Source: a virus. Taken from it: 21,965 nucleotides of DNA. Under the pieces are notes generated by a model, which worked only from the letters and a program-made list of their open reading frames with translations, was not told the DNA's origin and made no database searches. Shown here piece after piece: positions 3 through 12,879 of this stretch. The first letter of the stretch is position 1. Each line of letters starts with the position of its first letter. The stretch lies in the IMG/VR virus record IMGVR_UViG_3300049432_000105, positions 1-21,965 of that record, one strand, 5' to 3'. Both the position numbers and the translations under genes were made by a program.

Positions 3-581
3 TCAAATCCGGATTTTGCGCCGGCGATGATTACGCAGGGGCTCCACTTAAGAAAACAACGCGGGGAAAAAATCTACACCGGCGCTTACATGATCTCGGC
101 GCCTTCCGAAAAGGGCGCGGACAAGCAGGCCTATATCGCCGAGGTCGTCTGCGGCGAGCTATGGCGCCGGCGGGAGATTTTCGCCAAGCACTTCGCCGGC
201 ACGCCGACGCTGCAGCGGACGCATGAACTGATCACCCGCTCCAACGGCTGGGGCCCGTTCATGGCGTACCAGGCGGTCGTGGACATGCGCTACACGGCGC
301 TGCTCGACAGGGCCGACGATCTCGCGAGCTGGGCGGCGGCCGGGCCCGGCACCTTGCGCGGCCTGAATCGATTGCACGGCCGCGACAAGGATGCGGCGCT
401 GTCGCAGGGGCAGGCGCTGACCGAAATGCGCGCGATCTACCGCGTGGTGCAGCAAGAGACCAATGTCGCGATGGATTTTTCCGACGTTCCCAACATCCTG
501 TGCGAGACGGACAAGTATCTGAGGGAGCAGAGCGGCGAGGGCCATCCGCGCACCCGCTATGTCGCGGGCAGGGGTTTTTGA
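3..581 (+). CDS. 5-hmdU DNA kinase helical-domain-like protein, 5' end missing
   Basis: The frame is open to the left edge, so the gene probably starts outside the window; an internal ATG at 27 would give 184 aa. The visible part has the pattern I associate with the helical domain of phage 5-hydroxymethyluracil DNA kinases and the related alpha-glutamyl/putrescinyl-thymine pyrophosphorylases: KIYTGAYMIS, then GWGPFMAYQAVVDMRY, then AAGPGTLRGLNRLHGR, ending with DVPNILCETDKYLREQSGEG. That family, described computationally and tested in phages with hypermodified thymine, acts on modified pyrimidines in DNA and has a helix-hairpin-helix glycosylase-like fold. No P-loop kinase domain is visible; it could lie upstream or be absent. 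The next gene starts in a TGATG overlap. Family assignment is from remembered motifs, and the exact activity is not known. Confidence 0.65.
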   Translation, partial: SNPDFAPAMITQGLHLRKQRGEKIYTGAYMISAPSEKGADKQAYIAEVVCGELWRRREIFAKHFAGTPTLQRTHELITRSNGWGPFMAYQAVVDMRYTALLDRADDLASWAAAGPGTLRGLNRLHGRDKDAALSQGQALTEMRAIYRVVQQETNVAMDFSDVPNILCETDKYLREQSGEGHPRTRYVAGRGF

Positions 582-1102
582 TGGCCGCGCCGCTCCCGAC
601 ACACCCGACGCTGCCCGATTACGCCGACGTGGTGCGGATCTACCAGGGCTCGGATGGTGAAGCCACCAAGGCGCTGTATCGCGAGCTGGAACAGCTGGGC
701 CGGATCGGCGCCATCGCGGTCAATCTGTTTCGCGCCACCAAGTGCTCGGAGCGCGCCAAGATGTACCGCCGTGGACGCGGCTACAAGACCGCGGCCTATG
801 AGCGCAAGGACTGGAGCATCCGCAACCTGGCGACGGCGCTGCATGTGCAGCACGCGCAGGTGTTTTTCGATCTGAAATGGGGCTGGGCCGTCGACGATGG
901 CTTGCGCGAGCGCGGCGATCCGCACCATCACATCCTCTATCTCGAGCTGCCGACCGGGCAGGTCAGCTTTCACACCGGCGCGCGGGGTGAAGGCCCGGAC
1001 TACGCAAGAGAGTGGGACGGCGTGCGCGGCGCTGCGGCGGAGCGGGTCTGCCACTGGGTTGCAAGCCTGAGGCATCAGGAGGTCGCGCATGCCGACGCCT
1101 GA
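581..1102 (+). CDS. conserved phage hypothetical protein
   Basis: This 173-aa protein starts at the ATG that overlaps the stop of the modification-type gene (TGATG); an earlier in-frame ATG at 500 would overlap that gene by 80 bases and is less likely. The middle carries LFRATKCSERAKMYRR, and the C-terminal half carries KWGWAVDDGL, HHHILYLELPTGQVSFH and a GPDYAREWDGVRG segment. I recognise this last block as one that recurs in phage and plasmid hypothetical proteins, but I know of no function. There is no signal peptide or membrane segment, so it is probably cytoplasmic. Its coupling to the upstream gene suggests co-expression and perhaps a shared DNA-modification role, which is inference. 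Confidence 0.8.
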   Translation: MAAPLPTHPTLPDYADVVRIYQGSDGEATKALYRELEQLGRIGAIAVNLFRATKCSERAKMYRRGRGYKTAAYERKDWSIRNLATALHVQHAQVFFDLKWGWAVDDGLRERGDPHHHILYLELPTGQVSFHTGARGEGPDYAREWDGVRGAAAERVCHWVASLRHQEVAHADA

Positions 1103-1360: not shown

Positions 1361-1642
1361 GTGGATGCGCATGCCCAGACCTCTGCCGCCGCCCGCGAAG
1401 CGCCTTCAACCCGCTTTGCCAAGGATCAGCTGCGCTCGATCATCGAGCGGATCGAGCGGCTGGAGGAAGAGAAGAAATCCATCGCCGATGACATCCGCGA
1501 CGTCTACGCGGAAGCCAAGGGCAACGGTTTTGACGTAAAGGCGCTGCGCAGCATCGTGCGGCTGCGCAAGCAGGATGCCGGCCAGCGCGCCGAACAGGAA
1601 ACCATCCTGGAGACCTACATGCAGGCGCTGGGGATGCTGTGA
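1361..1642 (+). CDS. GapR-family DNA-binding protein (DUF2312)
   Basis: The 93-aa product has the GapR/DUF2312 pattern end to end: [20 protein letters not shown], then [20 protein letters not shown], then [10 protein letters not shown]. GapR proteins are small, alpha-helical, dimeric or tetrameric proteins almost confined to Alphaproteobacteria; in Caulobacter GapR binds overtwisted AT-rich DNA, affects replication and helps topoisomerases ahead of forks. The GTG at 1361 is chosen because GGAG at 1350-1353 sits 7 bases ahead and the resulting length matches the family. An upstream in-frame GTG at 1310 would add a basic 17-residue extension not typical of GapR. A phage copy near replication genes could help phage replication or shape DNA topology; that role is inference. 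Confidence 0.92.
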
Positions 1643-2426: not shown

Positions 2427-2686
2427 ACCTGACCGACCGAACGCTCCACGTGGATGTCGGTGATGGCGCCTTCATGACGTTGCCGCGCCCGGATTGGCTC
2501 TGGCCGCTCATCCATACCCGACCCGAGCCTGATCGCGGCACGCACTGCGACGACCGGATGCTCGCGGCCGGCGTGCTGCAAAGCTATCTCTATCTCGTTC
2601 AGAGTTGCACCAAGGAAGAGGCATGGCGACGCATCAAGTTGATGCGCGCCGCTTTGGATGCAAACAGCAACGCGTGGGTGTCATGA
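2423..2686 (+). CDS. small hypothetical protein
   Basis: This is an 87-aa protein in an ATGA overlap with the preceding gene and another ATGA overlap with the helicase-like gene that follows. The first half (LTDRTLHVDVGDGAFMTLPRPDWLW) is probably beta-rich. The second half (MLAAGVLQSYLYLVQSCTKEEAWRRIKLMRAALDA) is probably two helices. No family is recognised. Continuous four-base overlaps over three genes suggest translational coupling. Confidence 0.72.
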   Translation: MNLTDRTLHVDVGDGAFMTLPRPDWLWPLIHTRPEPDRGTHCDDRMLAAGVLQSYLYLVQSCTKEEAWRRIKLMRAALDANSNAWVS

Positions 2687-3594
2687 ACGCCGCGCCTCCC
2701 ATCGACGGCGCAACCGACGACGACGCGCTGCTGCGTGCCGCCGCCGCGCTGGCGTGGCGCGACGATCATGCCGCGGTGTCGCTGCCGACCGTGCTGACGC
2801 GGCCGCCGCTGGAGGGCGCGGTCGGGATGCTGGATTATTCCGAGCCTGAGGATCCGAACTCGGCGGCGTGGCCGCGCTGGAACATCACCGGCTCGTCGCA
2901 CGCCATCATCATGGCGAAAAAACTGTTCGGCACCGATTCCATGGCCAGCGACGGCGGCGGCAAGTCGATCTCGTTCCCGGCCACGCTGGGCTCGTTCGAC
3001 GAGCTCCTGATGGAGGCGGAAGCGATCCGCCAGACCCGGCGCGCCACCGCGCTGGCAAAGCTGCCGGCGGTGATCGCGTTTTTGCGCGGCTTGATGGAGG
3101 CCGAGGAGCCGACGCTGTGCTTCCTGCACCATCACGCCGTCACCGACGGCATCCTCGAGGCCTTGGAAGAATTTCGTCCGGTCTGCATCACCGGCCGGCA
3201 GGACAAGTCGCAAAAGGACGAGGCGGTCACCGCGTTTTCGCGCGGCGATACCAATCTCTGCCTGATCTCGCTGCGCACCGCGACCGGGATCGACGGCCTG
3301 CAAGCGCGCGCCCGCGTCGTGGTGTTCGCCGAGCTCGACTGGTCGCCGGCGGTGCACCGCCAGGCGGAAGACCGCGCCCATCGCATGGGGCAGCGCGACA
3401 GCGTGCTGGCGTATTACTTGGTCACAGACCTCGGCACCGATCCGTTCGTGATGATGACGCTGAACCTGAAGGCCAGCCAGTTCACCGGGCTGATGCAGGA
3501 CCGCGGCGAGAGCGATGACGACCGCCGCGATGCCAAGGATGCTGCCAAACAGCACATGGAAGGCGTGCTTTCGATGCTGCGGGGCCGGAAATGA
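2683..3594 (+). CDS. SNF2-type helicase, C-terminal lobe only
   Basis: This 303-aa protein carries the C-terminal RecA-like lobe of superfamily 2 SNF2/Rad54 enzymes: PTLCFLHHHAVTDGILEAL (motif IV region), VCITGRQDKSQKDEAVTAF, then LCLISLRTATGIDGLQAR around residues 190-207 (motif V) and HRQAEDRAHRMGQ at 225-237 (motif VI with the arginine finger). The N-terminal lobe with Walker A and DExH motifs is absent here, and none of the five upstream genes supplies it. Residues 1-120 show no clear motif. The start is the ATG in an ATGA overlap; an in-frame ATG at 2605 lies inside the previous gene. Alone it should not hydrolyse ATP normally, so it may partner another protein or be a remnant that still has an open frame. 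Confidence 0.85.
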   Translation: MNAAPPIDGATDDDALLRAAAALAWRDDHAAVSLPTVLTRPPLEGAVGMLDYSEPEDPNSAAWPRWNITGSSHAIIMAKKLFGTDSMASDGGGKSISFPATLGSFDELLMEAEAIRQTRRATALAKLPAVIAFLRGLMEAEEPTLCFLHHHAVTDGILEALEEFRPVCITGRQDKSQKDEAVTAFSRGDTNLCLISLRTATGIDGLQARARVVVFAELDWSPAVHRQAEDRAHRMGQRDSVLAYYLVTDLGTDPFVMMTLNLKASQFTGLMQDRGESDDDRRDAKDAAKQHMEGVLSMLRGRK

Positions 3595-3743: not shown

Positions 3744-4984
3744 GCGGTCCGCGCCTCTCCATCATCCCGGCCGGAGCGGTCACCGACCGCTCGCTGGAGC
3801 CGCGCGACCTGCAGGTGCTGTGTCTGCTGGGCCGTCATACCGACAAGGCCGGCTGGTGCGTCCGCAGCCAGGTCAAGATGGCCGGCGAACTGGACTGCTC
3901 TCGCTCGTCGGTGCAGCGCTCGCTCGACCGGCTCTATGAGGCCGGCTGGGTTGAGAAAAAGCGCCGCGACATTGCCATGGGCGCGTCCGATGCAGGGCAG
4001 CCGTCGGCTTCCTATGCGTATCGCGTAGTGCTCGACCGGGATGATTTTGCCTTCGAAACCGCCATCCGTGGCGCCGAAGAGGAGACCGACGAGAGCTATG
4101 CAGAAACTGCATCTGAGGAGGGGGGGTGCCCACCTGTGGGCACCCCCTCCGGCACCAATTCCGGCACCAATTCCGACGCGCCGGCAGGGCCGGAAAAGGC
4201 GGCCGAGGGTGCCCACACAGACGGGCACCCGGGTGCCCAGCCATACGTGGGCACGGGTGCCCAGCCATACGTGGGCACCAAGAACGTCCCCTTAGAACGA
4301 TCCCACCTTGAACGTGAGAGAGATGCGCGCGCGCGGGATCGAAGAGCGAGATTTCTGGTTTCGTTCGAGGCGAGGTGGCCGACGGCGGCTGCCGACGACC
4401 GCCAGCGCACGGCTTACGCGGCAGGCGCCTTGAGCGAAGCGGAAGAGCAAGCGGCACTCGCGGGCATCGGACCGTTCCTCGAAAATCTCAAGCGGCTCAA
4501 GCGCAGCAATGTTCCGGCCGGCTGGAACTATCTCGAACAACGACGCTGGACGCTGCTGGAAGCGCAGAAAGCGGCCGGCGTTGCGGTCGCGGCGGTGTTC
4601 GCGCGCGACACGGTCGAAGCCAAAGCGCTGGCGGTGCTGCACGAGATCGCGGGCGCCGGCGATGGATTCCGGAAAATCTATCGCTCCCCCGATGGTTCGA
4701 TCAGTTACCGCCTGCCGATGACGCCGCAACTGATGGCGCTTGCGCAAGCGGCGCCGCAAACCGAATGGGTTGCGCTGAACCGCAACCAGGCCGGCGCCTG
4801 GGAAGGCCTGCTTCGCGACGCGGTCACGATCGTGATCCGAAAGCACCTCAAGGAAGGCGAGCGCGCGCCATGGCCATGGCCGCCATCGGCCGAGGGCAAG
4901 GTCTACAGCTCGGCGACCGGCCCGCCGGACACGCTGATGAGCGAACAGGACGAGGCGGATTTTGCCAACGAGGGAACGCGATGA
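3740..4984 (+). CDS. winged-helix replication-initiator-like protein
   Basis: A 414-aa protein. Residues about 15-75 (DLQVLCLLGRHTDKAGWCVRSQ, then CSRSSVQRSLDRLYEAGWVEKK) form a winged helix-turn-helix of the type in phage O-like initiators and RepA proteins. Residues about 100-190 are a low-complexity linker encoded by palindromic repeats (GTNSGTNS at 138-145, then GAQPYVGT twice at 165-180). The C-terminal half (about 195-414) is helical and probably binds replication partners. The TTG at 3740 is chosen over a GTG at 3671: it overlaps the preceding stop as TTGA and has AGGTGG at 3730-3735 ahead; a longer form would add 23 residues without a domain. Layout and position between helicase-like and late genes suggest initiation, but a transcriptional role is possible. 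Confidence 0.78.
   Translation: MSGPRLSIIPAGAVTDRSLEPRDLQVLCLLGRHTDKAGWCVRSQVKMAGELDCSRSSVQRSLDRLYEAGWVEKKRRDIAMGASDAGQPSASYAYRVVLDRDDFAFETAIRGAEEETDESYAETASEEGGCPPVGTPSGTNSGTNSDAPAGPEKAAEGAHTDGHPGAQPYVGTGAQPYVGTKNVPLERSHLERERDARARDRRARFLVSFEARWPTAAADDRQRTAYAAGALSEAEEQAALAGIGPFLENLKRLKRSNVPAGWNYLEQRRWTLLEAQKAAGVAVAAVFARDTVEAKALAVLHEIAGAGDGFRKIYRSPDGSISYRLPMTPQLMALAQAAPQTEWVALNRNQAGAWEGLLRDAVTIVIRKHLKEGERAPWPWPPSAEGKVYSSATGPPDTLMSEQDEADFANEGTR
4122..4147 (+). repeat. perfect 12-base inverted repeat
   Basis: GGGGGTGCCCAC (4122-4133) and its exact complement GTGGGCACCCCC (4136-4147) are separated only by CT. It shares the core GGTGCCCA with the repeats 60-130 bases downstream, within the same linker of the initiator gene. 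Confidence 0.85.
4151..4174 (+). repeat. 12-base exact tandem repeat (GGCACCAATTCC x2)
   Basis: GGCACCAATTCC occurs at 4151-4162 and again at 4163-4174, encoding GTNS twice. The AATT steps are among the few AT-rich patches here, between the first GTGCCCAC palindrome and the main repeat cluster. Confidence 0.8.
4207..4278 (+). repeat. three 24-base palindromic units, iteron-like (candidate origin)
   Basis: Three units of 24 bases follow each other. Each starts GGGTGCCCA and ends in GGGCAC: 4207-4230, 4231-4254 and 4255-4278. The last two are identical; the first has the same outer half-sites but a different centre (ACACAGAC). Each unit is an inverted repeat GTGCCC...GGGCAC with an 8-10 base spacer, so with 4122-4147 there are eight half-sites. 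The 24-base period keeps the reading frame and gives GAHTDGHP, GAQPYVGT, GAQPYVGT. A related pair of AGAACG sites follows at 4281-4299. By analogy with lambda ori within gene O, this is a candidate binding array for the initiator. Confidence 0.75.
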
Positions 4985-5655
4985 AAGCAAACCTGAAAAA
5001 GGGCCAAGTGGTCGACTATGTCGATGCTCCGAAACAAAGGCCGCCGCGGTCAGCGGACGCATTGCGCATCTGGCATCTGGTGAACGTCAGCGACGGGCTG
5101 GATCAAGATGGCGTGGATTTTCTTGACCGGCTGCGGATTAAATTATACCAGCCGTTGATGCGCATCATGAAGCCGGTGCCGCGCGACCGGCTGTCACATT
5201 CGCAGCGCAAGTCGGCGCTCAGGCCGATGCGGGAAAAGATCGAACCGTTCTTTCCAGGCTACGCCTTTGCCGACTATTCCGAAGCCGGCGACCGGTGGCG
5301 TGAAATCTTCAAGATGAAACATATCCGCGGCCTGTCCTGCAACAACAACCAGCCGGTGCAGGTGCCGTGGAAGATGATCGCCGAAATTCAGGGCCTCGAG
5401 GTGGACGGTGCGATCCCGGGCGTGACAAAACTGTTCGAGATGCCGTTCATGCTCGGCGAACGGGTGCGCGTCGCCAAAGGCGCGTTCGCGTCGTTTCCCG
5501 GCACCATCGAGCAGTTACCCACATTCAATGCGGAAGCGATGGGCAATCTGTCGCTGGAAGAGCTTGACGACTCAGTACGCGTGCATCTATTGGTCGACAT
5601 CTTCGGACGTTCGACGCCAGTGGCATTGTCGATTTCGGATATCGAAAAGTTCTAG
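4981..5655 (+). CDS. NusG/RfaH-like transcription elongation factor
   Basis: This 224-aa protein starts at an ATGA overlap with the initiator gene. Residues about 28-130 resemble an NGN domain: RIWHLVNVSDGLDQDGVDFL, an aromatic/proline-rich segment IKLYQPLMRIMKPVPRDRL, and EPFFPGYAFADY, the classic FPGYvF signature, followed by WREIFKMKHIRGL. Residues about 158-180 (FMLGERVRVAKGAFASFPG) match the KOW motif of the C-terminal domain, and the tail ends DIFGRSTPVALSISDIEKF. NGN domains bind the RNA polymerase clamp and suppress pausing, and specialised paralogues such as RfaH or LoaP act on chosen operons. It is the last gene before the late operon, with terminator-like structures between them, so a role in late-gene antitermination is likely but inferred. 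Confidence 0.85.
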   Translation: MKANLKKGQVVDYVDAPKQRPPRSADALRIWHLVNVSDGLDQDGVDFLDRLRIKLYQPLMRIMKPVPRDRLSHSQRKSALRPMREKIEPFFPGYAFADYSEAGDRWREIFKMKHIRGLSCNNNQPVQVPWKMIAEIQGLEVDGAIPGVTKLFEMPFMLGERVRVAKGAFASFPGTIEQLPTFNAEAMGNLSLEELDDSVRVHLLVDIFGRSTPVALSISDIEKF

Positions 5656-6075: not shown

Positions 6076-6647
6076 TGTTTGGCCGCTCGCTCAACATCGA
6101 GCAGATCGAGCGGCTGGTCGACCTGCGCCGCGCGCTGCCGAAGGTGGCGATGCGGGCGCTCAACCGCACCGGCGCCAAGGCGGGCACGCAGGTGGTGCGG
6201 GCGCTGACGGATCAGACCGGGCTCGCGCGCAAGACCATCAAGCGCGCGGTGAAGTCGTATCGCGCCAGCGAGCGCAATCTTTCGTTTGCCTTGAAGACGC
6301 GCGGCGGCAACATCAACCTGCGCTTCTTCAAGGCGCGCGAGACGCGGGCCGGCGTCAGCGCCGCGCCGCTCGGCAAGCGGACCGTGGTGCCGCACAGCTT
6401 CATGAAGGCCGGGCGGTTTCCCAAGCGCGTGCGCTTCGACAGCCGCGGCAAGGGCAAGGGCATGCACGGCAACGTGTTCGTGCGCCGGGGCAAAGGCCGG
6501 TTGCCGATCGAGGGCGGCCGTTCCGGCGTCTACATCCCGACCGAGATGCTGCAGGGCCGCACGCTCGCCGCGTTCGACACGATGGTGGCGACCGACCTGC
6601 CGGTCCAGGTCGAGCGCGCCATCAACGACGCCCTTCGCGGCCACTGA
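6072..6647 (+). CDS. prophage minor tail protein Z-like (GPZ family)
   Basis: A 191-aa basic protein. It has the layout of the lambda gpZ/prophage minor tail protein Z family: an N-terminal helix (VDLRRALPKVAMRALNRTGA), the segment VRALTDQTGLARKTIKRAV, a beta region with LSFALKTRGGNINLRFF and AGVSAAPLGKR, then HSFMKAGRF...VFVRRGKGRLPIE and a final helix. Family members help complete the tail and join it to the head. ATG at 6072 or 6075 is possible; 6072 overlaps the upstream stop. Its place ahead of the terminase genes, far from the other tail genes, is unlike lambda, where Z follows FII. Confidence 0.72.
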   Translation: MMFGRSLNIEQIERLVDLRRALPKVAMRALNRTGAKAGTQVVRALTDQTGLARKTIKRAVKSYRASERNLSFALKTRGGNINLRFFKARETRAGVSAAPLGKRTVVPHSFMKAGRFPKRVRFDSRGKGKGMHGNVFVRRGKGRLPIEGGRSGVYIPTEMLQGRTLAAFDTMVATDLPVQVERAINDALRGH

Positions 6648-9526: not shown

Positions 9527-11163
9527 CACTGCTGGATCGTATGATGGGACGTTCTGCCAAGCCGGCCGCGGATTTGCGGCCGCCGAAGGCACGGGCCGGC
9601 TATCTGCGCGATACAAAGTCACGCGTGATGTCGATGCGGTCGTCGGCGTTGCGCGAACATCGCGATGACGTCCGGATTGCATGGCGCCGCGCGGCAGGCT
9701 TGGCCATGGACCTGATCCAGAACTCGGGGAGGCTCCGCGGTGCGGCCGACCAGGTGATTGCCGACACGGTCGGTGTCGAACTGGTATTGAACCCGCAGCC
9801 GGATCTCGCGGGCCTCGGCTATAGCGCCGACGAAGCCGCCGCGTTGGTGCGCACCATCAAACAGCGATGGAAGCGATACGCCTGGTCGCCGCGGGAATGC
9901 GACTTGCGCGGCAAGTTCAACCTGCCGCAGATGGTCGATATCGCGTTGCGATGGGACATGGTCTACGGCGAAGCGCTCGGCGTGATGAGCTACATGAGCC
10001 CGGCGCAGCGCCGGCAGTACGGCATCACGTCAGGCACCAAGATGTGCATGGTGACGCCGACCAGGCTTGTACAGGACACCAACGAGATCGAGGGCCTGTT
10101 TCAGGGCGTGATCCACGATCCCAACGGCCGCCCCGTAGCCTACCGGATCGAGGAGAAAGAAACCGGGATCAGGGTCAAGCGCGACTACAAGGCTTACGAC
10201 CGCGCCGGCCGCCAGCTCGTGACCCACGTATTCGATCCGCTTGACGCCGGCGATGTCCGCGGCATCAGCCGGATTGCTTCCGCGTTTCGCCAGCACATCC
10301 AGCATGAGATTCTGGTCGACACCACGATCCAGACCGCGATTTTGCAGACGGTGTTTGCCGCGGTGCTTACCAGCAAGACGCCCTCAAAGGAGGCTTTCGA
10401 GGCGATCGAGGCGATGAGCTCGGATGACCCGTTGCCGGCCGGCAAGTCATCCTACGGCGACGAGTATCGCGACTATTTTCTCGCCGCGCTCGATCGTGCG
10501 GCGGAAGGCGAGATTGCGATCAGCGATGCGCCGCAGGTGTCGCACCTGGCGCCGGATGAGGATCTGAAACTGCTCACGACCAAGACGCCGGGACCACAGT
10601 TTCTGCCGGTCAGCCGTGAGCTGTCGCGCGATATGGCGCGAGCGATCGGAATCACCTTCGGCGGGCTGACGATGAACCATGAGAATGCGACCTATTCGTC
10701 GACCCGCATGGAGAATTCCTCGATCTGGCCGGTCGTCACGCGCCGCCGCGAGCGCATCGCGGCGCCGCCGTGTCAGGCGGTGTACGAGAATTGGCTCGAC
10801 GAGGAAGTCGGCGAGGGCCGGATTGCGATCAAGGGAGGCTATGACGCCTTTGACGCGAACCGCGAGCGGTTGACGTGGGCGCTGTGGCAGGGGCCGGCGA
10901 AGCCGAGCGCCGACGATTTCAAGAGCGCGAAAGGATCGAGCGAGCGGCTTTACAACGGGACCACGACGCTGGCGGACGAGTGCGCGGAAAACGGCAAGGA
11001 TCCGGATGAGGTGTTCGAGACGCGGGTGCGCGAGCACAAACGCTATACGGACGCCGGGCTGCCCTCGCCGTTCGTGCGCAATCCGAACGCCAAGCCGGAT
11101 GATGCTGCTGCTGTCGCCGAAGAGCCGCCGCCGCGGAATCGAACGCAGCGCGAGGATGCCTGA
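9523..11163 (+). CDS. portal protein (lambda gpB family)
   Basis: A 546-aa portal protein, forming the dodecameric ring at the capsid vertex through which DNA is packaged. The sequence has the pattern of PF05136: IQNSGRLRGAADQVIADTVG, CDLRGKFNLPQMVDIALRWD, a GEALGVM segment, KMCMVTPTRLVQ, RGISRIASAFRQHIQHEILV and FGGLTMNHENATYSSTRMEN. GTG at 9523 forms the GTGA overlap seen throughout the cluster, with GGAAAAAG upstream; an ATG at 9508 would add five residues and is the alternative. The C-terminus (KPDDAAAVAEEPPPRNRTQR) is disordered. The next gene starts in a TGATG overlap. Confidence 0.93.
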   Translation: MTLLDRMMGRSAKPAADLRPPKARAGYLRDTKSRVMSMRSSALREHRDDVRIAWRRAAGLAMDLIQNSGRLRGAADQVIADTVGVELVLNPQPDLAGLGYSADEAAALVRTIKQRWKRYAWSPRECDLRGKFNLPQMVDIALRWDMVYGEALGVMSYMSPAQRRQYGITSGTKMCMVTPTRLVQDTNEIEGLFQGVIHDPNGRPVAYRIEEKETGIRVKRDYKAYDRAGRQLVTHVFDPLDAGDVRGISRIASAFRQHIQHEILVDTTIQTAILQTVFAAVLTSKTPSKEAFEAIEAMSSDDPLPAGKSSYGDEYRDYFLAALDRAAEGEIAISDAPQVSHLAPDEDLKLLTTKTPGPQFLPVSRELSRDMARAIGITFGGLTMNHENATYSSTRMENSSIWPVVTRRRERIAAPPCQAVYENWLDEEVGEGRIAIKGGYDAFDANRERLTWALWQGPAKPSADDFKSAKGSSERLYNGTTTLADECAENGKDPDEVFETRVREHKRYTDAGLPSPFVRNPNAKPDDAAAVAEEPPPRNRTQREDA

Positions 11164-11435
11164 TGCCGACGATGATCGAGATCGACGGCATCGTCATCGA
11201 CATGGACGATCCATGCGCGGTCGTCGGTGCCTTGCGCGCGGCCGAGTTGAAGATAACGATCAGCGGCGGCGTGGTGATGACCCGCTTCAGTGAGCACAAT
11301 GAGGTCCGATGGGGACGGGCACATCTCGATGCATTGGCTGATCTGATCGCGGGGTATGAGCGGCTGTGCGAACGGAAATCCGGGCGGCGGTCTCGTTTCG
11401 CCAAGCGCATGCGTTTCGTCGGGGAAAGGTGCTAG
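11163..11435 (+). CDS. gpW-like head-tail joining protein
   Basis: A 90-aa protein. Residues about 18-65 (AVVGALRAAELKITISGGVV, then a charged beta hairpin and HLDALADLIAGYERLCERK) follow the helix-hairpin-helix pattern of lambda gpW: a first helix, a beta hairpin with SGG, and a second helix. gpW caps packaged heads so that tails can join. The N-terminal 15 residues (MPTMIEIDGIVIDMDDP) are extra compared with lambda gpW, and the tail is basic. In lambda W lies before the portal gene; here it lies after. The assignment rests on a short pattern and position, so it is moderate. Confidence 0.5.
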   Translation: MPTMIEIDGIVIDMDDPCAVVGALRAAELKITISGGVVMTRFSEHNEVRWGRAHLDALADLIAGYERLCERKSGRRSRFAKRMRFVGERC

Positions 11436-11437
11436 GG

Positions 11438-12358
11438 ATGTCGCTTGCCCACAGCCGACTGTGCAGCATGCTGTTCGAACAACCGCTGTTGTACCATCCG
11501 CGCAAGGCGGAGACGGTGGTTCGCATGCTCGGGCCGCGCCTGACCGGCCACTCCATCACCGTCTTGAACGGCGAGGGCGGTGCCGACCATTTGGCCTTTG
11601 CCGGCGGTCGCGCCTCGGCCGGCGTGATCGGCGACCGCATGGGCCGGGCCTACGATAGCGCCGGTGTTGCACCTTTCGATATCGTCGAGGGGGTCGCGAT
11701 CGTCGCCGTTGAGGGTACGCTCGTGCAGAAGGGCGCGTGGATCGGAAGTGAATCCGGCGAGACGTCGTATCAGGGTCTGCAGACGCAAATCGCCCGCGCA
11801 CATCGTCCCGATATCAAGGGCGCGGTCGTCGAGGTCGACTCCTTCGGCGGTCTGGTCAACGGCGCGTTCGAGACCGCGGCGGCGCTGAACAGTCTCTCGA
11901 AGGCCAAGCCGACCATCGCTATTCTTACGGATTTTGCCTATTCCGCGGCCTATCTGATCGCGAGCCAGGCGCGGCAAATCGTCATGCCGGAATTCGGAGG
12001 CGCCGCGAACATTGGTGTGGTGATGTTGCACGCAGATTATAGCGGCAGCCTTCAGCAGGAAGGCATCAAGGTAACCATCATCAAGTCCGGTGCTCACAAG
12101 ACGGATGGAAATCCCTACGAGGCGCTGCCGGAAGAATTGCTCGCACGCTGGCAGGTGCAAGTGGATACGATCCGTGACCGTTTTTGCGGCGTGGTTGGGC
12201 AGGGGCGCGGCAAGCGCATGACCAAGGCCCGTGCGCTGAAGACCGAGGCGCAGGATTTTGGAGCTGCCGAGGCCCTCGAGCTCGGCCTGGTCGACGCTGT
12301 CGGCGACGGGCAGGAGGCGTTCAGCGCCTTCATCAAGGAAGTCAACCGGAGATCCTGA
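11438..12358 (+). CDS. S49-family head maturation protease
   Basis: This 306-aa protein resembles the protease part of lambda gpC and the SppA/S49 family. VEGVAIVAVEGTLVQKG opens the fold, and VVEVDSFGGLVNGAFETAA follows. The nucleophile is Ser169 in DFAYSAAYLIAS, and the general base is probably Lys221 in KSGAHKTDGNPY (Lys216 is the alternative). It cuts scaffold and capsid proteins during head maturation. ATG at 11438 is chosen: it follows the previous stop by two bases and has AAAGG about 10 bases upstream; earlier in-frame starts lie inside the gpW-like gene. Unlike lambda C, the scaffold portion is a separate gene downstream. Confidence 0.93.
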   Translation: MSLAHSRLCSMLFEQPLLYHPRKAETVVRMLGPRLTGHSITVLNGEGGADHLAFAGGRASAGVIGDRMGRAYDSAGVAPFDIVEGVAIVAVEGTLVQKGAWIGSESGETSYQGLQTQIARAHRPDIKGAVVEVDSFGGLVNGAFETAAALNSLSKAKPTIAILTDFAYSAAYLIASQARQIVMPEFGGAANIGVVMLHADYSGSLQQEGIKVTIIKSGAHKTDGNPYEALPEELLARWQVQVDTIRDRFCGVVGQGRGKRMTKARALKTEAQDFGAAEALELGLVDAVGDGQEAFSAFIKEVNRRS

Positions 12359-12360
12359 CG

Positions 12361-12879
12361 ATGTCCAGAAGCCTATTGGCCGCGGTCCACAACGCGGTCC
12401 ACGACGTCCTCGATGAGGGCGAAACCGGCGCCGCGGCGCTCAACGCAAACCAGACTGGAGGCAAGATGTCGACAGATACTCAGCCCGGCGGCGGCATTCC
12501 TGCCGGCATTTCGCAGGCCACCCATGACGCGGCGGTTACCTCCGCGCGCACCGAGGGAAAGGCCGACGGCGAGAAGGCGGCAACCGAACGGTTCAACGCC
12601 GCGCTTGGGGCCGACGGCGTCAAGGGCGATGCCGGACGCATGGCGGCCGCGCTCGACCTCGCCGTAAAGTCGCCGGCAATGGCCGGTGCCGACGTGGCCG
12701 CGTTCGTTGTTGCCAACGTTGCCGCGGCCGCCGCCGCGGCACCATCCAAGAGCGGCGCCGAAAAATATTCGGCGGAGCGATCGTCTGCAGCCGGTCTGGC
12801 TCAGCCGCAGCCGGGCTCCGACAAGGGCGACAAGTCCGCGCTGGCGTCCGCCGTCGCGACCACCAACAAGCGCCGGTAA
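12361..12879 (+). CDS. putative capsid scaffold protein (gpNu3-like)
   Basis: The 172-aa product begins two bases after the protease stop, with GGAG at 12348-12351 placed 9 bases ahead. It is Ala/Gly/Ser-rich and low in aromatics: a helical start (LLAAVHNAVHDVLDEGE), a flexible segment, then HDAAVTSARTEGKADGEKAATERFNAA and alanine-rich helices (ADVAAFVVANVAAAAAAAPSK). This matches the C-terminal scaffold part of lambda gpC/Nu3, the substrate that shapes the procapsid. An internal ATG at 12466 preceded by GGAGG could give a 137-aa form. No specific motif proves the role; position between protease and decoration protein does most of the work. Confidence 0.7.
   Translation: MSRSLLAAVHNAVHDVLDEGETGAAALNANQTGGKMSTDTQPGGGIPAGISQATHDAAVTSARTEGKADGEKAATERFNAALGADGVKGDAGRMAAALDLAVKSPAMAGADVAAFVVANVAAAAAAAPSKSGAEKYSAERSSAAGLAQPQPGSDKGDKSALASAVATTNKRR
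12457..12468 (+). promoter_or_regulatory. internal ribosome binding site and second start in scaffold gene
   Basis: GGAGG at 12457-12461 precedes an in-frame ATG at 12466 by four bases, inside the scaffold gene. Translation there would begin MSTDTQPGGGIPAG. Both this and the first start have recognisable binding sites, so two scaffold forms may be made, or the internal one may be the main start. Confidence 0.45.

Follow-up and report, generated by a model that had tools for sequence, protein, structure and literature searches.

The window, by which we mean the whole stretch of DNA analysed here, makes up the whole of one virus record, which is 21,965 bases long and is classified as linear; the phages concerned are soil phages. 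The features at its left end that matter to this account are as follows.

3–581, plus strand: stand-alone HMUDK_hel protein, 3' 192 codons (PF18723, phrog_2396, 13 invariant residues), with its 5' end beyond the contig end
581–1102, plus strand: ORF2, a HHHILYLELPTGQVSFH protein of 173 residues, a positional neighbour with homologues on contigs L018, L065 and L066
1089–1301, plus strand: ORF3, 70 residues, a small conserved early gene (tblastn 58–74% in L004–L007)
1361–1642, plus strand: GapR-like nucleoid-associated DNA-binding protein (PF10073, E 2.8e-36; NF010247), context and not part of a system
2605–3594, plus strand: SNF2-type helicase without lobe 1 (PF00271), likewise context only

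The frame at 3–581 is open from the contig's first bases and runs off its left end. Its 192-residue product matches the Pfam family PF18723 (HMUDK_hel) with an E-value of 5.7e-25 over profile positions 100–276 of 281, and the 88.7 bits scored against a curated cut-off of 25 put the match far above chance level; phrog_2396 also matches, with an E-value of 1e-31, and NCBIfam gave no match. The first-pass annotation had likened this gene to the helical domain of 5-hmdU DNA kinases and had asked for an HMM comparison with that family, which bears the likeness out. Full-length relatives are approximately 285 residues long and consist of the domain alone, one of them scoring 154 bits over PF18723 positions 7–278, and profile searches found no additional domain in the full-length close relatives. 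Judged by their length, the gene in the window lacks a 5' portion of some 95–100 residues. Nineteen residues are invariant in all three contexts in which the family occurs (cassette, chromosomal and orphan); 13 of these fall inside the fragment and all 13 are present, the other six belonging to the missing part. The family placement of the window protein is thus well supported.

The second gene had been described as coupled to the first and its product as conserved. Conservation holds, in that homologues with 58–77% identity occur on three other phage contigs, but the coupling is one of position alone: the ORF2 ATG at 581 overlaps the HMUDK_hel TGA by one base (TGATG), whereas L065 and L066 carry the ORF2 protein without HMUDK_hel, and L005, the closest relative of the window, carries HMUDK_hel without ORF2. 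Relative to L005, the window has ORF2 inserted after HMUDK_hel and before ORF3. A functional partnership was rejected because each protein occurs without the other, and ORF2 is an independent, unrelated neighbour. Its best candidate relationship, to WDGH (PF25311), reached only an E-value of 0.11 and 13.3 bits, below the cut-off of 27, and an AlphaFold2 model (pLDDT 84.6) found no structural match with Z of at least 5. ORF3, by comparison, lies directly 3' of HMUDK_hel in L005, L006 and L007. Of the context genes, a GapR-like gene also lies near the same region in L005, L007, L065 and L066; GapR is typical of alphaproteobacterial hosts. Compared with L005, the SNF2-type helicase is shorter by 942 bp in frame (lobe 1), with the junction at 3009/3010, so that the C-terminal lobe alone remains; the deletion may be real, or the assembly may have collapsed here.

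HMUDK_hel proteins are found in three settings. In phage cassettes (M6, Pam3, RHph_TM26, Ab19 and many IMG/VR contigs) the gene lies between those for a P-loop kinase and a TS-type hydroxymethylase, with an amino acid:DNA transferase (ADDT) close by, and in a Bacillus phage the kinase (PF18748) and HMUDK_hel are fused in one protein adjoining thyA. The family is present in each of the sampled hypermodified-thymine phages, namely M6, PhiW-14 and those of Kuttervirus type. The proteins gp055 of Pseudomonas phage M6, Pam3_50 and PhiW-14 gp72, of a kind also annotated as aGPT-PPlase clade 1, share the Pfam family, full-length architecture and conserved residues of the window's protein, but M6-type genomes encode a dUMP hydroxymethylase, a P-loop kinase, ADDT and tailoring enzymes, none of which occurs in the window's close relatives. 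Similarly, the two-domain 5-hmdU DNA kinases of the Bacillus phages Goe26 and SP10 have a C-terminal domain of the same family, but whilst that of Goe26 is fused to PF18748 beside thyA, the orphan phages have the kinase neither as a domain nor as a gene. On chromosomes and plasmids a longer form is found with XRE/ImmA, TS-like or dCTP-deaminase-like enzymes and MazG_C, and another chromosomal set carries TIR, Nmad2, TS and a methyltransferase. These operons hold the same family as the orphan, and ADDT or a P-loop kinase was not noted alongside; the chromosomal proteins differ in forming a separate clade (100/100), in being longer, mostly through N-terminal extensions, and in having fixed nucleotide-metabolism partners. 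The third setting is the window's own: phage contigs that lack TS, kinase and ADDT, the partners that define a cassette.

A maximum-likelihood tree of 54 sequences places the window inside an orphan clade with support of 100/98, with L005 as its sister; the deeper order is uncertain because of long branches. Nearly all members of this clade lie on phage contigs. Two contigs labelled as cassette members in the tree for convenience, L091 and L172, both fall outside the clade, and the stretches searched in them held no TS, kinase or ADDT. In the orphan clade, none of the positions conserved among the cassette proteins has switched, and relaxation is confined to position 52. The median dN/dS is 0.16 and the maximum 0.29 across 161 pairs, values that are approximate as the synonymous sites are quite diverged, and the orphan gene is under purifying selection rather than decaying. 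Taken together, this selection and the retained conserved residues argue that the orphan protein keeps the family's own activity.

Since the window is a whole linear record, the left neighbours of its HMUDK_hel gene are not directly readable. Genes for hmdU synthesis or transfer had been expected there if the phage DNA carries modified thymine, and profile searches of whole records found them absent from every close phage relative. With Pfam profiles, the TS-type dUMP hydroxymethylase (PF00303) was detected in none of 29 orphan-clade virus records and in four of four cassette controls, and the transferase (PF18724) and P-loop kinase (PF18748) each in none of 27 records and in all five controls (the kinase in control L062 scoring below the curated cut-off); of the orphan records, 13 span 40–67 kb, all are linear contigs that may be partial, and L004/L005, L019/L020 and L022/L023 are near-duplicates. 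As Pfam misses one chromosomal TS-like protein, family-specific HMMs were added. Built from cassette proteins and chromosomal forms and run against 20 orphan records, complete or almost so, translated in six frames, these gave no match for TS, kinase, ADDT, PLP, radical SAM, FAD or phage DNA polymerase, whilst on a control record the same HMMs recovered TS (2e-167), kinase (1e-91) and ADDT (6e-135). The window's phage-contig relatives with 53–77% identity likewise have no TS, kinase or ADDT within 8 kb, and no ADDT is present in any of four bacterial genomes in which an orphan HMUDK_hel occurs. Partner genes concealed nearby were rejected on the strength of the Pfam searches of whole records and by the family HMMs over 20 records with their positive control. 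For an alternative source of hmU, the Tet_JBP dioxygenase (PF12851), the count was 0 of 31, but the control was equally silent. A few orphan records contain isolated nucleotide genes, namely Nmad5 (G009), a dCMP deaminase (G025) and HD hydrolase-like genes (G007 and G027).

No conserved operon partner emerged in the orphan phages, either when all ORFs were clustered against one another or when the flanking genes were inspected. The genes upstream of HMUDK_hel vary by phage (DUF4031, HNH, dGTP_diPhyd_N, DUF2303, AAA+ and others), and the flanking genes often have 4-base overlaps. As for the window-related phages, HMUDK_hel is probably single-gene cargo in an early operon, and that it is an orphan in the phage records at hand is well supported. 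The first-pass annotation, in proposing a fragment of a hypermodification system, therefore placed the family correctly, but a system of the known type is not likely given that the partners are missing from every close phage relative. Its fallback, that the domain has some other use, becomes the better-supported branch for the same reason. What is known, then, is a protein from hypermodification cassettes; what is new is a constrained clade of it without partners.

A search by sequence found no solved structure for the HMUDK_hel family, and we considered its fold through an AlphaFold2 model of the L006 protein (mean pLDDT 94). Foldseek against the PDB gave weak matches (best E 0.08) in a list dominated by HhH DNA glycosylases, none at a significant E-value. 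VIA-align aligned the model with 8-oxoG glycosylase and similar HhH enzymes with Z up to 10.2 (4.0 Å over 183 residues), although with helical proteins a Z below 13 is not always specific, and it also scored the DUF2419 queuosine salvage enzymes; these and the HhH glycosylases appear to share the overall helical arrangement of the HMUDK_hel model at Z of 7–10. Against predicted viral proteins, Foldseek returned the family itself, the SP10 5-hmdU kinase and ADDT (E 2.5e-4, TM 0.53). ADDT (PF18724; M6 gp51; PDB 25qc and 8z2m) thus has a similar predicted fold, but there is no Pfam-level sequence match between the two families, and a catalytic role for HMUDK_hel is putative. As the structural matches are to HhH glycosylases and ADDT, a DNA-glycosylase-like, base-flipping fold is probable for HMUDK_hel, with a predicted similarity that is moderate. 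A profile alignment to E. coli endonuclease III gave no signal for the catalytic Asp, and by-eye reading of the pattern suggests that an invariant GPG occupies the position of that residue.

From these data we infer a biochemical role for the orphan protein. HMUDK_hel would be the DNA-engaging, base-flipping half of 5-hmU chemistry; in cassette phages it would offer 5-hydroxymethyluracil to a P-loop kinase that is fused to it or lies adjacent. In the orphan phages it would act alone on (hydroxymethyl)uracil or thymine in DNA, the base not being the phage's own product; a separate job on DNA is probable here because the closest viruses are without the rest of the machinery. The purpose would most likely be inter-phage exclusion or phage–host conflict, rather than modification of the phage's own genome. 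We therefore lean towards HMUDK_hel as orphan early-operon cargo, base-flipping, that acts alone in phage–phage or phage–host conflict. A role in conflict is favoured because the orphan phages appear to be without their own hmU, the predicted fold points to recognition of bases, and the chromosomal homologues belong to nucleotide-metabolism operons that also hold TIR or ImmA genes; the argument draws on the absence of partners and on homologues from another subfamily. One recent study counts a 5-hydroxymethyluracil kinase domain and a thymidylate synthase among the domains it reports as validated against phages (PMC13092281). The orphan and chromosomal HMUDK_hel proteins had no match in PADLOC-DB 2.0.0, a 2023 library of known anti-phage defence.

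More tentatively, HMUDK_hel could be an independent DNA-base reader which, used alone, might for example sense or block the hmU or hypermodified DNA of competitors. The 5-hmdU kinase of M6, when purified, is reportedly active on SP8 DNA (PMC6449724), which suggests that the kinase step may be independent of the helical protein. The literature searched, whose reach does not extend to the main thymidine-hypermodification biochemistry, yielded no function for the M6 helical protein, and the protein's role in the pathway appears undefined there. If the reader idea is true, the family would represent a reader joined to writers in some lineages, going beyond an accessory domain of a kinase. A partnerless clade with conserved residues separates the activity of the protein from the pathway, and so offers a single-gene test system. 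Should its target prove to be modified foreign DNA, phage–phage competition would have a small new element.

A further reading is that the orphan is a divergent relative of ADDT that alters the phage's own DNA with a host metabolite and without 5-hmU. The predicted fold common to the two proteins would fit, as would the early-operon position and the retention in the clade of R15, N44, R47, D50, K137, D190, C263, E264, K267 and R270. Plain thymine, however, is without a leaving group, no tailoring enzymes lie nearby, and the homologues in cassettes and on chromosomes mostly accompany TS-type enzymes, so we regard a single-enzyme modifier of this kind as doubtful. The resemblance to HhH DNA glycosylases raises instead the prospect of a glycosylase or repair protein that removes 5-hmU, lesions or the hypermodified bases of rival phages, comparable to the defence glycosylase Brig1. 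Glycosylases of other families have an established role in defence (PMC11078745), and phages that appear not to produce their own hmU would be suited to it. Yet the same conserved residues are found in phages with their own hmU derivatives, where excision would be suicidal, and the GPG seems to stand where HhH glycosylases begin a helix with the catalytic Asp; excision by this protein is accordingly unlikely.

The preferred reading, of cargo acting alone, presumes that the partners are truly missing. A complete thymine-hypermodification cassette could in principle lie to the left of the contig end, given that the same family sits in the cassettes of M6, Pam3, TM26, Ab19 and many IMG/VR contigs, and there is one exception within the orphan clade: L072, a bacterial MAG contig, has a cassette-type thymidylate synthase directly downstream of HMUDK_hel (L071 is likewise chromosomal-looking). 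Such a cassette is nevertheless very unlikely in view of the partner counts for the close virus records, 13 of them of 40–67 kb, and their positive controls. The DNA polymerase of cassette phages is equally missing, and in the sister phage L005 approximately 20 kb of the upstream side is known and contains no partner gene. That an ancestral cassette left the gene behind as a decaying remnant, now without function, is scarcely credible: the partners are gone and the clade may derive from cassette-borne forms, but a dN/dS of about 0.16, intact frames in some 30 members of one clade and the loss of no conserved residue speak against it, and we disfavour it together with the hidden cassette.

Several other observations were made in these genomes. 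At 4972–5655 of the window, shortly before the packaging genes, lies a gene for a NusG-like transcription antiterminator (PF02357, E 1e-4; phrog_6386, 2.5e-11), plausibly a late-gene regulator. Several orphan-clade phages have a DUF5131/Gp37-like gene, radical-SAM-type by reading, near HMUDK_hel (L013, 8558–9544; L014, 4947–6065; L030, 6341–7471), which HMM comparison found to be unrelated to the radical SAM proteins of cassettes. Upstream of a chromosomal HMUDK_hel, the protein encoded at 6610–7776 of L099 looks like a TS by motif reading and escapes every Pfam model. In L072, the stretch at 9731–12620 encodes an orphan-clade HMUDK_hel, then the cassette-type thymidylate synthase and then a dCTP-deaminase-like (DCD-like) protein in a bacterial setting, an arrangement that is a possible link between the phage and chromosomal forms. 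Finally, L105, L106 and L107 carry chromosomal clusters of TS, methyltransferase and HMUDK_hel, with Nmad2 and a ThsB-type TIR identified in L106, and these clusters look like an uncharacterised defence-type island.
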